From: Lentibacter sp. XHP0401
GTDB lineage: Bacteria; Pseudomonadota; Alphaproteobacteria; Rhodobacterales; Rhodobacteraceae
Length of the DNA stretch: 64,000 nt
Direction of reading: 5' to 3'
NCBI RefSeq assembly: GCF_025751535.1
Contig: NZ_JAOWLC010000008.1
Span: 124,001-188,000, forward strand
Below the pieces are notes generated by a model, which was not told where the DNA came from, made no database searches, and worked only from the letters and a program-made list of their open reading frames with translations. Below, piece by piece: positions 11,295 to 22,222 of this stretch. The stretch's first letter is position 1, and every line of letters starts with the position of its first letter. The position numbers and the translations under genes were made by a program.

Positions 11295-11315
11295 TTGGTA
11301 AGTTTATGTTACCAA
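11295..11315. promoter_or_regulatory. Inverted-repeat operator upstream of the TRAP genes
   Basis: Arms TTGGTAA (11295-11301) and TTACCAA (11309-11315) are perfect complements around a 7-base spacer, inside an AT-rich region (11200-11430) that must hold the TRAP promoter. The identical arms with identical spacing recur before glcD at 17991-18011. Read as TTGGT-N11-ACCAA it fits the T-N11-A dyad of LysR-type regulators; the FadR/GntR type would have a 3-base spacer between TGGT and ACCA. The regulator is not identified. Confidence 0.75.
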
Positions 11316-11432
11316 TCTGCGGAAATTTTCGTTGTATTCTACATCGACATGCTTAGTAATTACCTACGGAGGGGGACCGGCAAAGATCGGGACTGTTCAA
11401 AAATATAACCATATCGAACGTGGAGGATGAAT

Positions 11433-12518
11433 ATGGATCGTCGTAAATTTCTGAAAGGCGCTGCTATTGGCGCAGGTGCAACGGCTCTGGCCGCACCGGC
11501 TCTTGCTCAAGGAGGCAAGCAGCTGACAATCGTATCAACATGGCCACGGGACTTCCCGGGCCTTGGTATGTCGGCCCAGCGTCTCGCAGCCCGTATCGCC
11601 GAAATCGGAGACGGTGCGTTTAACGTTGAGTATTTTGCCGCGGGTGAACGCGTCGGTGCGTTTGACGCATTTGACGAAGTGTCATCTGGCAACAGCCAAG
11701 CCTACATCGGCCCGGATTACTACTGGACAGGCAAGCACCCGGCTTTCGCCTATTTCACGGCGGTTCCTTTCGGAATGAACGTGGCTGAGCGCAACGCATG
11801 GATCGCCTTTGGTGGTGGCCAGGAGCTTTGGGACGAGCTGTCAGCCGAATATGGCGTCAAAGCATTCCAGTGTGGTCCAACAGGCACGCAAGCGGGCGGT
11901 TGGTTCAACAAAGAGATGGAAAGCGCCGACGATTTCAAAGGCCTCAAAATGCGTATGCCAGGCATGGGTGCGCAGGTTCTGACCAAGCTGGGGGCATCGA
12001 CTGTATCGCTTCCTGGCAGCCAGATTTATGAAAACCTCGTGTCAGGTTCTATCGAAGCGACCGAGTGGGTTGGTCCTTACAACGACTACTTCATGAAGTT
12101 CTACGAAGCAGCCAAGTATTACTATACTGGCGGTATGCACGAGCCGAGCGCAAGCATTGCCTTTGGCATGAATAAAGCATGGTTCGACGGTCTTACAGAC
12201 CATGAAAAGCTTCTCATTGAAGTTGCCTGTGCCGAAGAGCACGGCGTTGCACACCAAGAAGCAATCGCGAAGAACGGCGAATACCTTTCCAAACTCGTGA
12301 ATGAGCACGGCGTAGAAGTGCGTTCGTTCAGCGACGACATCTGGGATGCCTTCGGTGAAGCATCAGCAGAAGTGTTCGAAGAGACACGCAACCACTCGGC
12401 AATGGCTGCGAAGATTGACGACAGCTTCCAAGCGGCGCTGCGCAGCTACGGCACATATCTTGCGAACTTTGACGGAGCTTTCGTCAACCAGCGCAACCGT
12501 GTGTTGGGTCTGGTCTAA
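11433..12518 (+). CDS. TRAP transporter periplasmic solute-binding protein (DctP type)
   Basis: 361 residues. It begins with a twin-arginine signal (MDRRKFLKGAAIGAGATALAAPALAQ), so folded export by Tat is expected. The mature part is a DctP-like binding protein; the region around residue 205-235 (GSIEATEWVGPYNDYFMKF) and GGMHEPSASIAFGMNKAWF resemble the TakP/lactate-binding group, whose ligands are 2-oxo- or 2-hydroxy-monocarboxylates. That ligand class is inference from family resemblance and from the shared operator with glcDEF. The ATG at 11433 is preferred because GGAGG lies seven bases upstream; the ATG at 11427 directly abuts it. A terminator hairpin separates it from dctQ. Confidence 0.92.
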   Translation: MDRRKFLKGAAIGAGATALAAPALAQGGKQLTIVSTWPRDFPGLGMSAQRLAARIAEIGDGAFNVEYFAAGERVGAFDAFDEVSSGNSQAYIGPDYYWTGKHPAFAYFTAVPFGMNVAERNAWIAFGGGQELWDELSAEYGVKAFQCGPTGTQAGGWFNKEMESADDFKGLKMRMPGMGAQVLTKLGASTVSLPGSQIYENLVSGSIEATEWVGPYNDYFMKFYEAAKYYYTGGMHEPSASIAFGMNKAWFDGLTDHEKLLIEVACAEEHGVAHQEAIAKNGEYLSKLVNEHGVEVRSFSDDIWDAFGEASAEVFEETRNHSAMAAKIDDSFQAALRSYGTYLANFDGAFVNQRNRVLGLV

Positions 12519-12534
12519 GCGGCAGGAACAAGAC

Positions 12535-12564
12535 GAGCGGGGCCTTCTGGGCCCCGCTCTTTTT
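12535..12564 (+). terminator. Intercistronic terminator/attenuator between dctP and dctQ
   Basis: GAGCGGGGCC (12535-12544) pairs perfectly with GGCCCCGCTC (12550-12559) and is followed by TTTTT. Because dctQ and dctM lie downstream on the same strand, this probably reduces read-through, so that binding protein is made in excess over permease. Confidence 0.8.
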
Positions 12565-12649
12565 GAACGAACAACAACTATAGCGGCACAAGATGCCTCG
12601 GGCCACGCGCTCTTGAGGCCTAAGCCGTTTAGGGGAGGCAACCAAGCGC

Positions 12650-13642
12650 ATGTCCTACACTGCTGATCTATCGCGCACGGGGGGAGCCCCTGCGCTCCTG
12701 CCACGCGCTTTTGCATGGGGGATGCTCGGCTTTCTGGCTGCTTTCCTCATTATTAATGTTCTCAACCTCGGATGGGGTATTCCCAATTTGGCGGATGCGT
12801 TTGCGGGGCGAGCGGGCGGCCTGATTTGGGTGCCGCTTCTCATCGGCTTGCTCGGCATTGGCGGAGGTATCGGCTTTGCGCTGAGCACGCCTCACAACGC
12901 CCTGCGATGGGATGCGATGAAAATCCACGGATTCAACACTTATCTGATACGCGCTTGCTTCTGGAGTGTTGTCCTGATCGGCTTTGTTGATGCTTTCATA
13001 GCGATGTCGCGGGTTGAAGGCTTTCTCAACGGCGTAGTGAGTGCCGAACTGATGGGCAGTTTGGGGCGCTCGCGGTTTATCGGGCCGATGGTGCATGCAC
13101 CGCTTATCGTTTTGGGGGCGTTGATTGCATTTTGGCATCGTGGCCTTGGTTTTCACTGGCTGGCGCTTTTGATCGTTGGAGCTGAGCTTGCGATCGTGAT
13201 TTCGCGTTTTGTTTTCTCTTACGAGCAAGCGCTGATGGGCGACCTTGTGCGCTACTGGTATGCAGCGCTGTTTCTTTTCGCGAGCGCCTACACGCTGTTT
13301 GACGACGGGCATGTGCGCGTTGATGTGTTTTATGCGGGCTTCGGAAAAACCAAGAAGGGCTTTGTGAACGCATGGGGCTCGATCTTGTTGGGGATGGCGA
13401 CGGCCTGGGTGATCATCTGGATCGGCCTTGGCAGCAAAACCTCGATCATCAACTCGCCTGTGATGAACCTCGAGATCACACAGTCCGGCCCCACGGGGCT
13501 TTATGTAAAATACCAGATGGCGGCCTTTCTCGGGGTTTTCGCTATCACCATGCTCATTCAGTTTGTGAGCTATTTTCTTGAATCGGTGGCTGACAAGCGC
13601 GACGAGCCGGGACACCGCACCGTCACACCAACCGGCCACTGA
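12650..13642 (+). CDS. TRAP transporter small permease (DctQ), enlarged
   Basis: 330 residues, about twice the usual ~160-200 of DctQ. The C-terminal half holds the expected four membrane segments (near 165-187, 202-220, 243-262, 290-312) with the conserved HVRVDVFYA after the second. The N-terminal half adds roughly four more hydrophobic segments (near 19-41, 56-78, 97-118, 142-160) that are not part of a standard DctQ. The protein partners DctM in the inner membrane, using the ion gradient to import the solute delivered by the binding protein. It is 12 bases before dctM. Confidence 0.88.
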   Translation: MSYTADLSRTGGAPALLPRAFAWGMLGFLAAFLIINVLNLGWGIPNLADAFAGRAGGLIWVPLLIGLLGIGGGIGFALSTPHNALRWDAMKIHGFNTYLIRACFWSVVLIGFVDAFIAMSRVEGFLNGVVSAELMGSLGRSRFIGPMVHAPLIVLGALIAFWHRGLGFHWLALLIVGAELAIVISRFVFSYEQALMGDLVRYWYAALFLFASAYTLFDDGHVRVDVFYAGFGKTKKGFVNAWGSILLGMATAWVIIWIGLGSKTSIINSPVMNLEITQSGPTGLYVKYQMAAFLGVFAITMLIQFVSYFLESVADKRDEPGHRTVTPTGH

Positions 13643-13654
13643 GGAGCACCCATA

Positions 13655-16321
13655 ATGGAACTATTTTTTCTAGCTGTTCTGGTACTGAGCATGGCGACGG
13701 CTTTGGGCTCGGGCTATCCAGTGGCTTTTGCGCTTCCAGGAGCTGCAATTATTACCATCCTACTTGCGGGCCTTTCAGGCCTTGTTTTTGCCGGCGATGC
13801 CAGCGCCTATTTTCACTCGGGTGATCCGCAGCAATGGCTCTCGGCGGGGGTGACCAACCTCAGGGGGGTTTTCTGGGAAGTCGAGCGAGATACGCTGATT
13901 GCGATTCCGCTGTTTATTTTCATGGGGATCATGCTTCAGCGTTCAAAGATCGCGGAAGATTTGCTTGTGACGATGGCGCAGCTTTTCGGCCCTGTGCCGG
14001 GCGGCCTCGGGATTTCGGTTGTGTTTGTGGGCGCGCTTCTGGCGGCGACCACGGGTATTGTTGGCGCGACTGTTGTGGCCATGGGCCTTATCAGCTTGCC
14101 CGCGATGCTGCGCAACAATTACTCGCCTTCGCTTGCCACAGGCACGATTGCGGCTTCGGGCACTTTGGGGCAGATCATTCCGCCTTCGATTGTTTTGATC
14201 ATTCTGGCAGACCAGCTTGCGAGCGCAACAGACCAAGCCAGCACAACACGTAAGGCGCTGCACAAAGCCTCGACAGGCGAGCTTTCCATGCCATCGAGTT
14301 TTGATGTGTCGTCCACTTCGGCGGGCGAAATGTTTCTGGGGGCGCTTGTGCCCGGCATTCTGCTTGTGTTGATCTACATGGCCTACATTCTGATTTACGC
14401 GTTTTTCAAGCCTTCCGCCGCACCTGCGGTGAAAGTCGAGGGCAAGTTTGACCGCGCCTTCTGGGGCTCGGTTGCGCTGACGCTTATTCCGCCGCTGACG
14501 CTTATCTTTCTTGTGCTTGGCTCGATCATCACGGGGGTTGCCACGGTGAATCAGGCGGGCGCGATTGGCGCTGCCGGTGCGATGGTTATGGCGGGTTACA
14601 GGCTTTATGAAGGGCCGAACAAAAAGCTGACTTATGTGCCGGCTATTATTGGTCTGGTTGCACTTGTCGGTCTGGCATTTCTCATCAAGAACTTTGAAAT
14701 GAACCTGAAGTCGGTCGATACGGCGCAAGACCAGATGGGTATTTCGCTTGGTATGATCGCTTCGGGGATGCTGATTGTTTCGGTCGTCTGGAGTGGCTGG
14801 CGGGTGTTCCGCACGCATGGCACGCTTGATGGTGTGATGATGGAAACTGCAAAGACAACATCGCTTGTCTTTATCATCCTTCTGGGCGCAGCCATGCTGA
14901 CATCGGCTTTCCGTGCCTTTGGTGGTGAAGAGCTTGTGCGAGAGTTTCTTAACTCGCTTCCAGGTGGTTTCTGGACGCAATTCCTGATCGTAATGCTGGT
15001 AATCTTTATTCTCGGTTTCTTCCTTGATTTCATCGAGATTGCCGTGGTTGTTGTGCCGATCGTTGCGCCTATTCTTCTGGCGGATCCGAGTGCTAATATT
15101 ACGGCAGTCTGGCTGGGCGTTATGATCGGGCTGAACATTCAGACCAGCTTCCTGACCCCGCCGTTCGGCTTTGCGCTGTTCTATTTACGGGGGGTCGCGC
15201 CTGCCACAGTGAAAACGATGCAGATGTATAAGGGCGTTGTGGCCTTTATCAGCTTGCAGCTTCTTGCGCTTGGTGTTGTCGGGTTTTACCCGCCGCTGGT
15301 GAATTATCTGCCAAACCGCGCAGCCTTTCTTTCGGAAACGGCTCCGCCTCCGCGGAACCCGAGGCTGCAATACTGCATGGAAGAGTTTGTTGGCCGTGAT
15401 TTGACGGACGGAACAGCCGGATTCGAGCAGGCGATTGCACGGATGCAGGGCGTTGATCTGTCCGGTTTGCCCGATCGTATGGCAAAAGATCTGGCAGAAG
15501 GCTTTGCGGCAGGTCCGGAAGCGATTGCCAGCTTGAAAGAGGCTTTTGCGATGGAAGATGCGGTTGAGGAAGCGGCTGTTATTTATCGCCCCAAGCAGAT
15601 TTTGGTGCGCAGGATCGAGAAAGAGATCCGAAAGCTTGAAGAGGAAGCGGCGGATATCACGACGATTGCAAACCGTATGAGAGACGAGGAACAGGCCCCA
15701 CGCCGTGCGCGCATGGAGGCACGTCGCGATGCGATGTTGGCCGAGGCCGAGCAGTTGAAAGGGGAAATCCCCGAGACATGGGAGCCGGTGCACGACGAGT
15801 TTGCGAAGCTGACAACAGCCGAGCAAAAGGCGCGCACGAGCTATCAGCGCAATGCAGACAAGTCTTGGGAAGCCGCTGCCGAAGCATTGGCAACTCTGGA
15901 AGACAACGAGGCTTTTGCCGCGCTCGAAGGTGAGTTGCGTGATTTGCGCGGCTTCATCGAAACGGTTTCCGAGACGGACCCTGCGGGTGAAGACACAGTG
16001 AAAGCGCTTGAGGATAAGTTCGGTGAAGTTGAGGGCGCAGGTGATGTGAAGTCGGCGCTTGGCAAGGCGCGCCGTGATTTGCGTGTGGGCAAGTTCAACC
16101 GCGAGACGGCTTTGGAAGACTATAACGATGCGGTTGCGGAGTTTGAGGCGCAGAAGGTGTGGCGTGCAAATGCTGAGGGGCTCAAGCCGGAGCTTCAAGC
16201 TTACCTCGATGGTATTCGCGGCACTTTGGGGCTGCGCAGCCAGCCCCGACTGGACCGTGAAGCGGCGCTTTTCATGGCGTCGTGTAGCTCGACGCACCGC
16301 GATATCTCGCTGAACTTCTGA
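13655..16321 (+). CDS. TRAP transporter large permease (DctM) with long C-terminal tail
   Basis: 888 residues against about 430 for a plain DctM. Residues 1 to ~560 form the multispanning permease, including FIFMGIMLQRSKIAEDLL, IIPPSIVLIILADQ and LTPPFGFALFYLRGV; an insert at ~190-225 (STTRKALHKASTGELSMPSS) interrupts the first half. From ~570 on, the protein becomes soluble and charged, rich in Glu, Lys, Arg and Ala, with heptad-like helices (RRIEKEIRKLEEEAADI, YNDAVAEFEAQKVW), so a cytoplasmic coiled-coil-like domain of ~310 residues is likely. There is no internal stop or frameshift, and the composition resembles the rest of the gene. It ends before a clear terminator. Confidence 0.9.
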   Translation: MELFFLAVLVLSMATALGSGYPVAFALPGAAIITILLAGLSGLVFAGDASAYFHSGDPQQWLSAGVTNLRGVFWEVERDTLIAIPLFIFMGIMLQRSKIAEDLLVTMAQLFGPVPGGLGISVVFVGALLAATTGIVGATVVAMGLISLPAMLRNNYSPSLATGTIAASGTLGQIIPPSIVLIILADQLASATDQASTTRKALHKASTGELSMPSSFDVSSTSAGEMFLGALVPGILLVLIYMAYILIYAFFKPSAAPAVKVEGKFDRAFWGSVALTLIPPLTLIFLVLGSIITGVATVNQAGAIGAAGAMVMAGYRLYEGPNKKLTYVPAIIGLVALVGLAFLIKNFEMNLKSVDTAQDQMGISLGMIASGMLIVSVVWSGWRVFRTHGTLDGVMMETAKTTSLVFIILLGAAMLTSAFRAFGGEELVREFLNSLPGGFWTQFLIVMLVIFILGFFLDFIEIAVVVVPIVAPILLADPSANITAVWLGVMIGLNIQTSFLTPPFGFALFYLRGVAPATVKTMQMYKGVVAFISLQLLALGVVGFYPPLVNYLPNRAAFLSETAPPPRNPRLQYCMEEFVGRDLTDGTAGFEQAIARMQGVDLSGLPDRMAKDLAEGFAAGPEAIASLKEAFAMEDAVEEAAVIYRPKQILVRRIEKEIRKLEEEAADITTIANRMRDEEQAPRRARMEARRDAMLAEAEQLKGEIPETWEPVHDEFAKLTTAEQKARTSYQRNADKSWEAAAEALATLEDNEAFAALEGELRDLRGFIETVSETDPAGEDTVKALEDKFGEVEGAGDVKSALGKARRDLRVGKFNRETALEDYNDAVAEFEAQKVWRANAEGLKPELQAYLDGIRGTLGLRSQPRLDREAALFMASCSSTHRDISLNF

Positions 16322-16339
16322 TCTGCAGGAAAACAAACA

Positions 16340-16375
16340 AACCGCCGCCCCGGAGACGAGGCGGCGGTTTTCTTT
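16340..16375 (+). terminator. Rho-independent terminator after dctM
   Basis: AACCGCCGCC (16340-16349) pairs with GGCGGCGGTT (16360-16369), followed by a TTTTCTTTT run. It closes the TRAP unit and separates it from the CoA-enzyme gene. Confidence 0.85.
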
Positions 16376-16418
16376 TGCGCGGGTTGCGCTAGGATTGGCC
16401 AAGCAGAAGGAGACAGCC

Positions 16419-17510
16419 ATGGGCGCGTTGAGTGGTGTGCGAATTGTTGAAGTTGAGGGGCTTGGCCCTGCGCCTTTTGCGGGGATGCTGCTGGCCGATA
16501 TGGGAGCTGATGTGATTGTGGTGCACCGAAAGGGAGGCACGCCTGCCCCCGGGATGCCCCAGCGATCGGTGCTGGACCGTGGCAAGCGCTCGATTGAGCT
16601 TAACCTGAAGGATGAGGGCGACAAGGCAGTATTCTTAAAGCTTGTTGGGCGGGTTGATGCGCTGATCGAAGGGTTTCGCCCCGGTGTGATGGAGCGGCTG
16701 GGGCTTGGGCCTGAAGCCTGCCATGCGGTGAACCCTAAGCTGGTATTTGGCCGTATGACCGGCTGGGGGCAGAGCGGGCCGCTGGCCCATGCGGCGGGGC
16801 ATGATCTGAACTACATCGCGATGTCGGGCGCACTCTGGTACGCAGGTGCGCCCGAGGCTGCGCCGCTGACGCCTGCAACGCTTGTGGGGGATATCGGCGG
16901 TGGCGCGATGTATCTGGTGAGCGGTGTGCTTGCGGGAATTTTGCAGGCAAGGGCCTCGGGGCAAGGCACGGTTGTTGACGCAGCAATTTATGACGGTTCT
17001 GCGCATATGATGAACCTTGTTATGGCGCTGCGCCAGAGTGGGGGGATGCCTGAGGCGCGCGGACAAGGGCTGCTTGACGGGCCGCATTGGAGCCGCACGT
17101 ATGAGTGCGCCTGCGGCGGCTACCTGTCGGTGCAGAGCCTTGAGCCACAGTTTTATGCCGAGTTTTTGCGCCTGTTAAAGCTTGAAGGCGACGAGGACTT
17201 CCAGCGCCAGTATGACAAAGCGCTTTGGCCTGAGTTGACCGGGCGCTTGGCCGCAATATTCAAGACCAGGAGCCGTGATGACTGGGCGGCGCTTTTCCTT
17301 GGAACGGATGCCTGTGCGGCACCTGTGCTTTCGCCGGATGAGGCCGCGCGCCACGAGATGAACGGGGCGCGCAGCACTTGGGCCAAAGTCAACGGTGTGC
17401 TGCAAGCCGCCCCTGCGCCACGTTTTGAGGGGCAGGGCGGTTGGGAGCCGGTTGAGCCGCCGGCGCGTGGGGCTGATACAGCGGCGATACTGAAAGAGCT
17501 GGAAGACTGA
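16419..17510 (+). CDS. CaiB/BaiF family CoA enzyme, alpha-methylacyl-CoA racemase-like
   Basis: 363 residues. The start LSGVRIVEVEGLGPAPFAGMLLADMGADVI and the later AAGHDLNYIAMSGALW are typical of family III CoA enzymes; the GHDLNY stretch carries the His expected as catalytic base in alpha-methylacyl-CoA racemases, and VGDIGGGAMYLVSGVLAGILQ the matching Asp. It should therefore invert the 2-methyl centre of branched acyl-CoA esters, though a CoA-transferase role cannot be excluded from sequence alone. The ATG at 16419 follows AAGGAGACAGCC and replaces a longer reading from 16395. It stands alone between the TRAP terminator and a convergent small gene. Confidence 0.85.
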   Translation: MGALSGVRIVEVEGLGPAPFAGMLLADMGADVIVVHRKGGTPAPGMPQRSVLDRGKRSIELNLKDEGDKAVFLKLVGRVDALIEGFRPGVMERLGLGPEACHAVNPKLVFGRMTGWGQSGPLAHAAGHDLNYIAMSGALWYAGAPEAAPLTPATLVGDIGGGAMYLVSGVLAGILQARASGQGTVVDAAIYDGSAHMMNLVMALRQSGGMPEARGQGLLDGPHWSRTYECACGGYLSVQSLEPQFYAEFLRLLKLEGDEDFQRQYDKALWPELTGRLAAIFKTRSRDDWAALFLGTDACAAPVLSPDEAARHEMNGARSTWAKVNGVLQAAPAPRFEGQGGWEPVEPPARGADTAAILKELED

Positions 17511-17526
17511 GGAGGGTCAAAACGGC

Positions 17527-17886
17527 TTAGTAGGGGAGACTCACTTCGAAAGCCTTTTCACTCCAGCCGTTTTCGGAGCAGCGGGCGCGCACCCAGATTT
17601 TGGTCATCCCGTCGGGCAGCATCACGTTGCGCAAAGAGCGGGTGAAGGGCTGTTCCTCGACATGCGGGTGCATCAGTTCGCGATAGGCAATCTGGTTGCC
17701 TGCTGCGTCGATAAGCTCCCAACCATCGGCGTAATGCTCCCAGCCTGTGTCTGGGTGCTGGAGGGTCACATCAAAGCGCCAGCCCATGCCCGCGCGGGAG
17801 GCTTCGACCTTGGTGATGATCGGAGCATCGGCGTGAGCGCCTGAGGTTACTATAAGCGCGGCGAGGAGAGTTAAGGTTTTGAACAT
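17527..17886 (-). CDS. Small secreted protein of unknown function
   Basis: 119 residues, not assigned to a family. The first ~19 residues (MFKTLTLLAALIVTSGAHA) form a clean Sec signal peptide with an AHA-D cleavage site. The mature part reads as a single beta-rich domain (KVEASRAGMGWRFDVTLQH, WEHYADGWELIDAAGN) with one cysteine. The ATG at 17886 is chosen for the signal peptide; the frame runs on upstream to 18105 but that part overlaps the glcD promoter and is not protein-like. It is divergent from glcD and convergent with the racemase gene. Confidence 0.7.
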   Translation of the reverse strand: MFKTLTLLAALIVTSGAHADAPIITKVEASRAGMGWRFDVTLQHPDTGWEHYADGWELIDAAGNQIAYRELMHPHVEEQPFTRSLRNVMLPDGMTKIWVRARCSENGWSEKAFEVSLPY

Positions 17887-17990
17887 GAGACTGAAGTAAC
17901 ACTGAGGAGGACGAAGTTCACGACACATTTTTGTGTGAATGCACGAGGAAATGCCGCAGGATTGAAGGAATCGATTGAGTTTGAGGTGAA

Positions 17991-18011
17991 TTGGTAATAA
18001 TAACTTACCAA
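17991..18011. promoter_or_regulatory. Inverted-repeat operator upstream of glcDEF
   Basis: TTGGTAA (17991-17997) and TTACCAA (18005-18011) around a 7-base spacer, ending 14 bases before the glcD start codon and overlapping the space before its ribosome-binding site. Both arms are identical to those at 11295-11315. The position fits a repressor site or an autoregulated LysR-type target. Confidence 0.75.
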
Positions 18012-18025
18012 TTAAGGAGAAGCCC

Positions 18026-19465
18026 ATGCAAATGCCCGTACCAAACCCTGTAACGCTTGCGAAAAAGGCCAAGTTGACCGAGCGGTTGCGGGCTGTTCTG
18101 GGCAAAGACGGAGTGATATCGGAAGAGATTGCGCTGAAAGCTTACGAGTGTGACGCGCTTACCGCATATCGCTGTCCGCCGATGCTTGCGCTACTGCCGC
18201 GGACCACCAAAGAGGTCGCGGCGGCGCTTAGGATTTGTCACGAGATGGATGTGCCTGTCGTGCCGCGTGGCTCGGGGACATCTCTGGCGGGCGGAGCGAT
18301 GCCCACAGCCGACAGCGTGATTTTGGGTGTGAGCCGTATGAGCGAGGTGCTTGAAACCGATTATGCAGACCGCATTATCCGTGTGCAAACGGGGCGGACC
18401 AACCTGTCTGTCACGGGTGCTATTGAGGGGGAGGGTTTTTTCTATGCGCCGGACCCGTCGAGCCAGCTTGCCTGCGCGATTGCGGGCAACATCGCGATGA
18501 ACTCGGGCGGGGCGCATTGCCTCAAATATGGCGTGACGACCAATAATCTCATGGGCGTGACCATGGTGATGATGGACGGCGAGATTGTCGAAATCGGCGG
18601 TGCGCATCTGGATTCGGGCGGGCTGGACCTGCTTGGCCTGATCTGCGGCAGCGAGGGGCAACTCGGTGTGGTGACAGAGGCGACATTGCGTATCCTTCAC
18701 AAGCCCGAAGGAGCGCGGCCGGTGCTCATCGGATTTGACAGTAACGAGGTGGCTGGCGCTTGTGTGTCCGATATTATCCGCGCGGGGATTTTGCCTGTGG
18801 CAATCGAGTTTATGGACCGTATGCTAATCGGCGTTTGCGATGACTATTCCGGCGCGGGCTATCCTGACTGTGAGGCGCTTCTGATTGTGGAAGTGGAAGG
18901 CAGCGAGGCCGAGATTGAACATCAGCTCGGGCTTATTCACGAGATTGCCAAAGGGCATAATCCTGTGGAATTTCGCAAGGCGACGAGTGCCGAAGAAGCC
19001 GGGCGCATCTGGGCCGGTCGCAAGGCGGCTTTCTCGGCGATTGGCAAGGTGAGCGATTATATGTGCCTTGATGGCACGATTCCTGTGAGCCAGCTCCCTT
19101 TTGTTTTGAAGCGGATTGGTGAGTTGAGTCAGACATATGGGCTTGCTGTGGGCAACGTCTTTCATGCGGGTGACGGGAACATGCACCCGCTGATTTTATA
19201 TGATGCGAATAAGCCCGGGGACTTGGAAATCTGCGAAGCATTTGGCGCGGAAGTGCTGAAGCTCTGTGTCGAAGTGGGCGGATGCCTGACGGGTGAACAC
19301 GGAGTCGGCATAGAAAAACGCGACCTGATGCTTGACCAGTTTGCGCCTGAAGATTTGGACATGCAGATGGCCGTTAAAGATGTGTTTGATCCAAAGTGGC
19401 TTTTGAACCCTGCCAAAGTCTTCCCGCTTGCCTCATCCGAGGCGCGGCGGATTGCGGCGGAGTAG
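18026..19465 (+). CDS. glcD: Glycolate oxidase subunit GlcD (FAD-linked)
   Basis: 479 residues. GlcD is the FAD subunit of the GlcDEF complex, which oxidises glycolate (and often D-lactate) to glyoxylate at the membrane. The PCMH-type FAD domain is seen in VVPRGSGTSLAGGAMPTADSVIL and CAIAGNIAMNSGGAHCLKYG; the C-terminal half has HAGDGNMHPLILYD and the signature TGEHGVGIEKRDLM. The ATG at 18026 follows AAGGAGAAGCCC. It is first of glcD, glcE, a small membrane gene and glcF, and is preceded by the inverted-repeat operator. Confidence 0.95.
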   Translation: MQMPVPNPVTLAKKAKLTERLRAVLGKDGVISEEIALKAYECDALTAYRCPPMLALLPRTTKEVAAALRICHEMDVPVVPRGSGTSLAGGAMPTADSVILGVSRMSEVLETDYADRIIRVQTGRTNLSVTGAIEGEGFFYAPDPSSQLACAIAGNIAMNSGGAHCLKYGVTTNNLMGVTMVMMDGEIVEIGGAHLDSGGLDLLGLICGSEGQLGVVTEATLRILHKPEGARPVLIGFDSNEVAGACVSDIIRAGILPVAIEFMDRMLIGVCDDYSGAGYPDCEALLIVEVEGSEAEIEHQLGLIHEIAKGHNPVEFRKATSAEEAGRIWAGRKAAFSAIGKVSDYMCLDGTIPVSQLPFVLKRIGELSQTYGLAVGNVFHAGDGNMHPLILYDANKPGDLEICEAFGAEVLKLCVEVGGCLTGEHGVGIEKRDLMLDQFAPEDLDMQMAVKDVFDPKWLLNPAKVFPLASSEARRIAAE

Positions 19466-19470
19466 GGCGC

Positions 19471-20589
19471 ATGGAATTTCATCCAAAGAGTGAGGCCGAG
19501 CTGGCCGAAGTTGTGGCTGGCTTGCAAGCGCCTGTCAGGGTGCAGAGCGGCGGCACGCGGGCTGTTGGGAGTGTGGTGGCGAACGATGTGCTGCATCTCG
19601 GCGGCATTGCTGGCGTGGTGGATTATGAACCCGGCGCGCTGACGCTTGTGGCGAAGGCTGGCACGCCTTTGGTCGAGATCGAGGCGATGCTGGCGGCGGA
19701 AAAGCAGCGGCTGTCTTTTGAGCCGATGGACCATCGTGTGCTTTTGGGCACGAAGGGCGAACCGACGATTGGCGGTGTTGTGGCGGCGAATGTAAGTGGG
19801 CCACGGCGGATTTCTGTGGGCGCCTGCCGCGACTTTGCGCTTGGCGTGCGGTTTGTTGACGGGATGGGCCGTGTGGTGAAAAACGGCGGCCGAGTGATGA
19901 AGAACGTGACGGGCTATGACCTTGTCAAACTCATGGCCGGAAGCCGGGGCACGTTGGGCGCGATGAGCGAAGTGAGCCTGAAGGTGATGCCTGTGCCGGA
20001 AGTTGAAACGACTTTGGTTTTGCATGTGACTGATGCGGCGCAAGCTGTTGAGGCCATGTCGGCGGCCCTAGGCTCACCCTATGAGGTAACCGGGGCGGCG
20101 CAAAGTGGTGCGGTATACTTGCGCCTTGAGGGTTTTGCGCCCTCGGTTGCCTACCGCTTGGAGGAGCTGGAAAACCTGCTGGGTCGCTTTGGCGAGATGG
20201 AACGGCTGGTGGCGGCGGCCTCTGCAAAGGTTTGGACCGATATCCGTGATGTGCGCGCGTTTGCCGAGCAGGATTTTGTGACCCGCGTGTCGCTGCGCCC
20301 TTCGGATATGTCTGCGTTTCTAGCAGCGGCTCAGGCGGAACACAGCTTTGATGCGATGCTTGATTGGGGCGGGGGGTTGGCATGGCTTGCGACGGATAAG
20401 GAGAGCCTTGGCGGTTTTGCCCAAAGTTTTTGCGCCGCGAATGGCGGGCATGCGACTCGTGTGAAAGGCGCGTTTGAGGCCTGTGCCTTTCAGCCAGAAG
20501 CAGCGGGTGTTGCAAGGTTGAGCTATGGGCTGCGGCAGCGGTTTGACCCGAAGGGGTTGTTTAACCCGGAGCTCATGGCGCGCGGATGA
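19471..20589 (+). CDS. glcE: Glycolate oxidase subunit GlcE
   Basis: 372 residues, a second FAD-binding subunit of glycolate oxidase, shorter than GlcD. The FAD-binding portion reads VQSGGTRAVGSV, then GEPTIGGVVAANVSGPRRISVGACRDF and the hallmark GRVMKNVTGYDLVKLMAGSRGTLG; the C-terminus ends LRQRFDPKGLFNPELM, as in the family. It starts 5 bases after glcD and its last four bases overlap the next gene (ATGA), so coupling is tight. Confidence 0.94.
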   Translation: MEFHPKSEAELAEVVAGLQAPVRVQSGGTRAVGSVVANDVLHLGGIAGVVDYEPGALTLVAKAGTPLVEIEAMLAAEKQRLSFEPMDHRVLLGTKGEPTIGGVVAANVSGPRRISVGACRDFALGVRFVDGMGRVVKNGGRVMKNVTGYDLVKLMAGSRGTLGAMSEVSLKVMPVPEVETTLVLHVTDAAQAVEAMSAALGSPYEVTGAAQSGAVYLRLEGFAPSVAYRLEELENLLGRFGEMERLVAAASAKVWTDIRDVRAFAEQDFVTRVSLRPSDMSAFLAAAQAEHSFDAMLDWGGGLAWLATDKESLGGFAQSFCAANGGHATRVKGAFEACAFQPEAAGVARLSYGLRQRFDPKGLFNPELMARG

Positions 20590-20921
20590 ATTATGGCGGG
20601 GCATATGTAATAGTCTTTCTGGGCGGGCCGCTCTTGATGCTGTTACTCACGCGGCGCGAGGCAACGCAGATGGCGTTTCTTTTGGGCGCTGGCATTGTAA
20701 CCGCGCTGATCGCGGCCGCCTTGTTTTCAAATGCCGCACCCGGGCTTGAAACACTGGGGATGCTTTGGCTTGCCTGGGTTGGCACGGTTGCGCTTTGTGT
20801 GCGTGCGGTGATGCGGCGGATTGAGACAAAGAGGGGCTTAGCCCTGACAAAAGCGATAGGTGCTATGGCCTGCGTGATCCCCTGGATCGGGCTGGCGGCA
20901 GCAGAATGGATGGTTGGCTGA
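20586..20921 (+). CDS. Small three-helix membrane protein inside the glc operon
   Basis: 111 residues, not recognised. Hydrophobic segments are at ~5-20 (GAYVIVFLGGPLLMLLL), ~28-48 (MAFLLGAGIVTALIAAALF), ~55-70 and ~88-108, so three or four membrane spans are likely, with a basic loop (RAVMRRIETKRG). Its start codon overlaps the glcE stop and its stop overlaps the glcF start (TGATG), so it is translated as part of the operon. Its place between two oxidase subunits suggests membrane anchoring or electron transfer for GlcDEF; this is inference. Confidence 0.72.
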   Translation: MNYGGAYVIVFLGGPLLMLLLTRREATQMAFLLGAGIVTALIAAALFSNAAPGLETLGMLWLAWVGTVALCVRAVMRRIETKRGLALTKAIGAMACVIPWIGLAAAEWMVG

Positions 20922-22222
20922 TGCAGACGAACTTTACCCCCGAGCAACTCAAGGACGCAGGCACGGCCCGTGCGAACGAGATTTTGCGCAACTGTGTGCA
21001 TTGCGGTTTTTGCACAGCGACTTGCCCGACCTATCAGATTTTGGGTGACGAGCTCGATAGCCCGCGCGGGCGGATCTACCAGATCAAAGACATGATTGAG
21101 AACGAGCGTGTGCCTGACAAAAAGACGGTGATGCACATTGACCGCTGTTTGAGCTGCCTTGCGTGCATGACGACCTGTCCTAGCGGTGTGCACTACATGC
21201 ATCTTGTCGACCATGCGCGCGAGTATATCGAGAACCATTATAAGCGCCCGTTGACGGACCGGGCCTTGCGTTGGATTCTGGCGCAGATTTTGCCTTACCC
21301 CATGCGCTTTCGGGTTGCTCTTCTCGGCGCGAAAATCGCCAAGCCGTTCAAGGCGCTTGTGCCGGATGCGCGGCTTCGGGCGATGCTTGAGATGGCGCCG
21401 AAGGTTATCCCCCCTGTGAGCCGCAATGATGACCCGCAGGTTTTTGTACCTGCGGGCGAAAAGAAGTTGCGCGTTGCGCTCATGACCGGCTGTGCGCAGA
21501 AGGCGCTTAACACCGATATCAACGACGCAACCATCCGCCTGCTGCGCCGCTTTGGCTGTGAAGTTGTGATTGCCGAGGGGGCGGGCTGCTGCGGAGCGTT
21601 GACGCACCATATGGGCAAGGCCCGCGAGAGCCATGCGACGGCGGAGAAGAACATTAACGCATGGATGGCCGAGGCAAAGGTGGGTGGGCTCGACAGCATC
21701 GTCATCAACACCTCGGGGTGCGGCACAACTGTGAAGGACTATGGCCATATGTTCCGCGAAAGCGGTAAGGCAGCCGAGGCGGCGCACGTCGCCGATCTGG
21801 CGCAGGATGTGAGTGAGCTATTGATGCAGCTTGATCTGCCGGAAGGCGCGGCCAAGGGCATTCGTGTGGCTTATCATGCGGCTTGTAGCTTGCAACATGG
21901 CCAGCAGATCAAGACCTTCCCGAAGGACTTGCTGAAGCGCGTCGGGTTTGAGGTTGTCGAGCCAGCAGACAGCCATCTCTGCTGTGGATCGGCAGGAACA
22001 TATAACTTGATGCAGCCCGAGATATCCAAGGAGCTGAAGCGCCGTAAGGTAGATACACTGGAGGCTAAAGCGCCCGATGTGATAGCGGCGGGCAACATTG
22101 GCTGCATGATGCAGATCGGCGGGGCGACGGGCGTACCCGTGTTGCATACTGTCGAGCTACTCGACTGGGCAACAGGCGGGCCAAAGCCACGCGCCTTGCA
22201 AAACTGGTCGCCTGTGCCCTAA
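20921..22222 (+). CDS. glcF: Glycolate oxidase iron-sulfur subunit GlcF
   Basis: 433 residues. Two 4Fe-4S ferredoxin clusters are visible near the start, CVHCGFCTATCP (~residues 28-39) and CLSCLACMTTCP (~82-93), followed by two CCG-type cysteine-rich modules (GAGCCGALTHHMG and DSHLCCGSAGTYNLMQP) that typify the heterodisulfide-reductase-like electron carriers. GlcF passes electrons from the flavin subunits to the quinone pool. The ATG at 20921 shares bases with the stop of the preceding gene; an in-frame ATG at 20906 lies inside that gene and is less likely. Confidence 0.95.
   Translation: MQTNFTPEQLKDAGTARANEILRNCVHCGFCTATCPTYQILGDELDSPRGRIYQIKDMIENERVPDKKTVMHIDRCLSCLACMTTCPSGVHYMHLVDHAREYIENHYKRPLTDRALRWILAQILPYPMRFRVALLGAKIAKPFKALVPDARLRAMLEMAPKVIPPVSRNDDPQVFVPAGEKKLRVALMTGCAQKALNTDINDATIRLLRRFGCEVVIAEGAGCCGALTHHMGKARESHATAEKNINAWMAEAKVGGLDSIVINTSGCGTTVKDYGHMFRESGKAAEAAHVADLAQDVSELLMQLDLPEGAAKGIRVAYHAACSLQHGQQIKTFPKDLLKRVGFEVVEPADSHLCCGSAGTYNLMQPEISKELKRRKVDTLEAKAPDVIAAGNIGCMMQIGGATGVPVLHTVELLDWATGGPKPRALQNWSPVP

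Follow-up and report, generated by a model that had tools for sequence, protein, structure and literature searches.

One GntR/FadR-type regulator probably controls a TRAP importer and the glycolate oxidase genes of Lentibacter through a shared dyad

The dyad TTGGTAA-N7-TTACCAA occurs upstream of both the TRAP transporter unit and glcDEF in a 64,000-nucleotide stretch of Lentibacter sp. XHP0401 (hereafter the window), and both copies very probably serve as operators for a single regulator of the GntR/FadR type (FCD) from the PdhR/LldR/GlcC group, which would be autoregulated and would repress its targets until an acid binds. The importer and the oxidase would share this control sequence as members of one regulon, probably a small and widely conserved gene set that is switched by a single GntR-type repressor whose gene lies outside the window. 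What was computed here comprises the sites and how well they are conserved, their targets, how regulator and motif co-occur, and the geometry of the promoters; that the regulator binds, whether it represses and what induces it are inferred from these results. The features concerned are as follows.

11295-11315, no strand assigned: operator dyad TTGGTAA-GTTTATG-TTACCAA upstream of dctP (exact pattern match)
11427-12518, plus strand: dctP, TakP-like TRAP solute-binding protein with a Tat-type signal
12650-13642, plus strand: dctQ, presumed small TRAP membrane subunit, judged by position and length
13655-16321, plus strand: dctM, large TRAP permease of 888 aa with a long C-terminal extension past the DctM domain
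17975-17980, plus strand: candidate -35 element TTGAGT of the glcD promoter, its TTG 16 bp before the dyad
17991-18011, no strand assigned: operator dyad TTGGTAA-TAATAAC-TTACCAA upstream of glcD (exact pattern match)
17998-18003: candidate -10 element TAATAA of the glcD promoter, in the spacer of the glcD dyad
18026-19465, plus strand: glcD, FAD subunit of glycolate / D-lactate oxidase
19471-20589, plus strand: glcE
20586-20921, plus strand: small hydrophobic ORF between glcE and glcF, without a family match
20921-22222, plus strand: glcF, Fe-S subunit, scoring above the NCBIfam cut-off
C26:32436-33200, outside the window: gntR, GntR/FadR-type (FCD) regulator gene, beside atpF

As reported in the first-pass annotation, the two dyads are exact, with identical arms and an identical 7-nt gap around the spacers GTTTATG and TAATAAC. 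No third copy had been seen; this is correct for the window, even at three mismatches, but not for the genome, which holds two further exact copies. The statistics of the window alone are weak, as at least two matches were obtained in 18 of 100 window shuffles at the three-mismatch threshold, whereas the genome-wide count is decisive. In the whole 3.7 Mb genome the pattern was found four times exactly, never with one mismatch and four times with two mismatches, and the number of exact copies expected from base composition is approximately 0.004. The third exact dyad (C25:72454-72474) lies 44 nt before the pyruvate carboxylase gene (pyc) and the fourth (C26:32397-32417) 18 nt before the start of gntR. 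All four exact copies are located at related metabolic genes or at the regulator. The two-mismatch matches (L005-L008) lie inside or beside unrelated genes and were dismissed, and the one-mismatch matches outside the family, also beside unrelated genes, behave like AT-rich background. When any gap from 0 to 20 was permitted, exact arms were found 23 times in seven Lentibacter genomes, in every case with gap 7, and the reversed control pattern gave no exact-arm match in the same genomes and gap range. Well-scoring sites contain TGGT...ACCA, a TKGT/ACMA-type palindrome.

The first-pass annotation found no regulator gene adjacent to either unit, which holds within the window, but the probable regulator gene, gntR, lies outside it. 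Its product matches the Pfam models GntR (75.9 bits, cut-off 27) and FCD (85.3 bits, cut-off 24.3), and its recognition helix, VSRPSLREAI, is identical to that of E. coli PdhR; the PdhR/LldR/GlcC group uses TGGT/ACCA half-sites (PMC4494728, PMC10272880). The dyad precedes the gene's own start codon in 43 of 48 gntR orthologues, at a distance of 11-30 nt in all but one, and has the form tGGTCATA-nnnn-TgACCAA across them. In a first sample of 35 genus and family genomes, the regulator was present in 29, and the motif (at most one mismatch) in 28 of these versus none of the six without it. The second sample comprised 120 family genomes, some of them shared with the first, and here the motif, counted on the searched strand, was found in 85 of 91 genomes with the regulator versus 6 of 29 without (Fisher p = 5.8e-14, indicative only because the genomes are related). 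The same conserved site at both units and its co-occurrence with a GntR-type regulator support the earlier proposal that one regulator serves dctP and glcD.

In each of the six exceptions that have the regulator, a weaker dyad stands before glcD, matching 12 of 14 arm positions in G010 and 10-12 of 12 core positions in G076, G080, G094, G107 and G118, and eight regulator-negative genomes checked at the same place reach 6-7 of 12 core positions, except for the fragmented G140. Among the regulator-negative genomes with a motif match, three matched the reversed control too, as AT-rich background does, and G127 has a single match that is not placed beside any known target. In G140 the sites at glcD and glcB look genuine, and no regulator was detected in its assembly of 590 contigs. 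In another of these regulator-negative genomes, GTGGTAA-N7-TTACCAA precedes a GntR paralogue that is 36% identical to the regulator (G151, L185:2349-2369), which suggests that the wide-spaced site may be common to several related regulators.

In Lentibacter species, the site precedes dctP, glcD, pyc, lldD and gntR, and in other genera it is found before glcD (almost always), lldD, glcB (malate synthase G), lutA, other TRAP receptor genes and, once, pyc. Among orthologues the arms are conserved while the spacers vary. The L-lactate dehydrogenase gene lldD is present in the window's own genome with no recognisable dyad before it, and the site before lldD is kept in 5 of 6 genus relatives. At the genome's own lldD promoter (L164:1434-1454) the -35 element is kept and the operator seems decayed (TTCGTAAGCATTTACAACAAT). 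No dyad was found before glcB in this genome or in Lentibacter. Across Lentibacter and in G009, pyc is directly preceded by a gene (L009:5073-6224) for an FMN-dependent 2-hydroxy acid dehydrogenase that is only 31% identical to true LldD. The predicted target set would serve to take up, oxidize and assimilate lactate and glycolate. The presence of the same site before pyc, lldD, glcB and lutA agrees with the original suggestion that the TakP-like importer is linked to glycolate, lactate or a related 2-hydroxy/2-oxo acid.

Six dctP genes of the genus were compared, including the present one, and the arms of the upstream dyad are kept in all, one with a single arm change, around a varying spacer. 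DctP is nearest to TakP (2hzk) of Rhodobacter sphaeroides, in which six residues hold pyruvate and its cation (PMC1839085), and all six (Tyr100, Gln156, Arg177, Glu214, Trp215 and Glu240) are identical in the alignment to 2hzk (Tyr99, Gln155, Arg176, Glu213, Trp214 and Glu239 of DctP); a 2-oxo or 2-hydroxy monocarboxylate is the predicted substrate. No lactate permease of the LctP family was found in the genus Lentibacter. The dctQ product gave no match to the NCBIfam models. The permease encoded at 13655-16321 continues for approximately 330 residues past the DctM domain, in a charged, helix-like region without a Pfam match that is kept in the genus relatives. Between the TRAP and glc units lies a CoA-transferase family III gene (16419-17510), which has no operator dyad before it and keeps its position in several Lentibacter genomes.

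The sign of regulation was considered from the promoter geometry. A TTG is located exactly 16 bp before the dyad in 20 of 26 glcD orthologues and at 23 of 39 gntR sites, and 19 bp before it in 14 of 16 lldD promoters; with a 17-bp spacing, these fixed distances place the -10 hexamer in the spacer or the left arm of the dyad. The spacers of the glcD and gntR dyads are conserved as TA(t), which this position of the hexamer would explain, and the lldD spacer is not conserved. The dyad lies 14-18 nt before the start codons of glcD and gntR. A protein bound over the -10 element of glcD, gntR and lldD would exclude RNA polymerase, implying that the regulator acts as a repressor. E. coli LldR and GlcC can also activate, which counts against a firm assignment. 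At dctP, 111 nt separate the start codon from the dyad, which is followed by conserved GAAATTTTCGTTGTATTC; repression there is less clear because of that distance.

The distance from TGGT to ACCA is 11 nt in these sites, whereas a GT-to-AC distance of 2-3 nt, typical but not universal, is stated for most FadR-subfamily sites (PMC4494728) and is not seen in these dyads; the regulator must therefore sit on the DNA differently. The same 11-nt distance occurs in the glcD-regulator region of P. kondratievae, where the related dyad GTGGTAT-N7-AGACCAC sits in the interval from glcD to the neighboring regulator, in a lut-type locus of P. denitrificans, at S. meliloti glcD and in the lutA region of G023. 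In addition, the spacer length between the palindromic half-sites of GlcC motifs differs between alpha- and beta/gammaproteobacteria (Leyn et al. 2016, PMC5343134). By that survey's account, the alphaproteobacterial GlcC regulons of RegPrecise (PMC5343134) resemble the present system in having a GntR/FadR regulator of glycolate genes and a spacer unlike that of beta/gammaproteobacteria. They may include the atpF-linked orthologue group. Judging from membership in the PdhR/LldR/GlcC group, the 11-nt distance elsewhere and the surveyed spacer difference, the type of system is already known.

Within that group the regulator passes none of the curated NCBIfam cut-offs (PdhR, 193 of 330 bits; LldR, 170 of 311; GlcC, 148 of 301). 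Outside its own orthologue group the closest relatives are encoded by glcDEF in Sinorhizobium meliloti (45% identity) and by TRAP-lldD-dld in Marivivens (41%). E. coli LldR and PdhR are likewise GntR/FadR proteins with TGGT/ACCA half-sites and cross-regulate lldPRD and glcDEFGBA (PMC10272880, PMC3265435), but they share 33-39% identity with the present regulator and no orthology, and the LldR box, AAnTGGTCnGACCAnTT, has close half-sites; E. coli GlcC is 33% identical. GlcR of Paracoccus denitrificans is also a GntR/FadR repressor of glcDEF in Rhodobacterales; it differs in being encoded beside glcDEF, in its 42% identity and in having only glcDEF described as target (PMC11323563). The deep branches of the regulator tree are weakly supported, so the tree was used only for separation from GlcR and coherence of the orthologue group. 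Identity with Paracoccus GlcR was ruled out by the separate branch and by the location beside atpF rather than glcDEF. Identity with AkgR, a GntR-type protein of Rhodobacter sphaeroides (Imam et al. 2015), is unlikely, since its gene number would place it approximately 55 genes away from the atp operon. Literature searches turned up no direct account of a lactate TRAP regulon in roseobacters.

Two alternatives to a GntR-type operator were weighed. The weak statistics of the window alone would allow both dyads to be chance matches or a dispersed repeat, but this idea is practically refuted by the genome-wide excess of exact sites, by their location at related genes conserved across genera and by the uniform gap of 7. 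The first-pass annotation favored a LysR-type binder, which would activate both units from the T-N11-A dyad. That form is present, and a 7-nt spacing fits LysR boxes; a lysR gene is typically encoded near its target, usually divergently, but none was found beside any site examined, the dyad occupies a repressor position over the -10 element just before glcD and gntR, and it is the GntR/FadR-type gene that carries the operator and co-occurs with the motif. A LysR-type regulator is therefore highly improbable, and the dyad matches T-N11-A only by coincidence.

With a GntR/FadR-type repressor as the preferred reading, the inducer is most likely lactate, and less likely glycolate or pyruvate. Lactate gives the best fit because pyc, lldD and GlcDEF, acting on D-lactate, are targets, and glcD and glcB suggest glycolate as a second substrate. 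It is unlikely that glycolate is instead the inducer and the cargo of the importer, as in a GlcC/GlcR-like regulon: no other target is kept as widely as glcD, several genera have glcB among the targets and the related Paracoccus GlcR responds to glycolate (PMC11323563), but pyc and lldD suit lactate or pyruvate, glcB has no site in Lentibacter, GlcDEF oxidizes D-lactate at a similar rate too (PMC10272880) and GlcR forms a separate branch. Sensing of pyruvate, as by PdhR, in an overflow or anaplerosis switch is quite unlikely. It would agree with PdhR as the best model match despite the low score, with pyc as a target and with the regulation of glcDEFGBA by E. coli PdhR (PMC3265435), whereas no pyruvate dehydrogenase target was found among the sites, and the FCD pocket has, by alignment reading, the D-H-H-H of LldR/GlcC types that is partly missing in E. 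coli PdhR.

According to the favored GntR-type model, the regulator would, without inducer, occupy the dyad and block the promoter, over the -10 element at glcD, gntR and lldD and adjoining the presumed promoter at dctP. Binding of a 2-hydroxy (or 2-oxo) monocarboxylate to the FCD domain would release it from the dyad, and import by TRAP DctPQM, oxidation by GlcDEF (with LldD in relatives) and the step into central metabolism through pyruvate carboxylase (with malate synthase G in relatives) would then rise together, while the regulator would also control its own gene.

Among the important routes by which carbon passes from algae to marine Roseobacter-group bacteria are glycolate and lactate. 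With the regulator and its full target set named, the switch is testable with one deletion, and the TRAP importer, a member of a family otherwise hard to assign, gains a strong substrate hypothesis. The dyads also raise the structural question of how a FadR-type dimer would read half-sites 11 nt apart. More tentatively, this atpF-linked and so far unnamed FadR-type repressor may possibly be a protein whose dimer reads, in a DNA-binding geometry unlike that of the rest of its family, half-sites separated by approximately 8 bp more than in classical FadR-family operators, and may thereby act as the lactate/glycolate master switch of most Rhodobacteraceae, coupling import, oxidation and anaplerosis.
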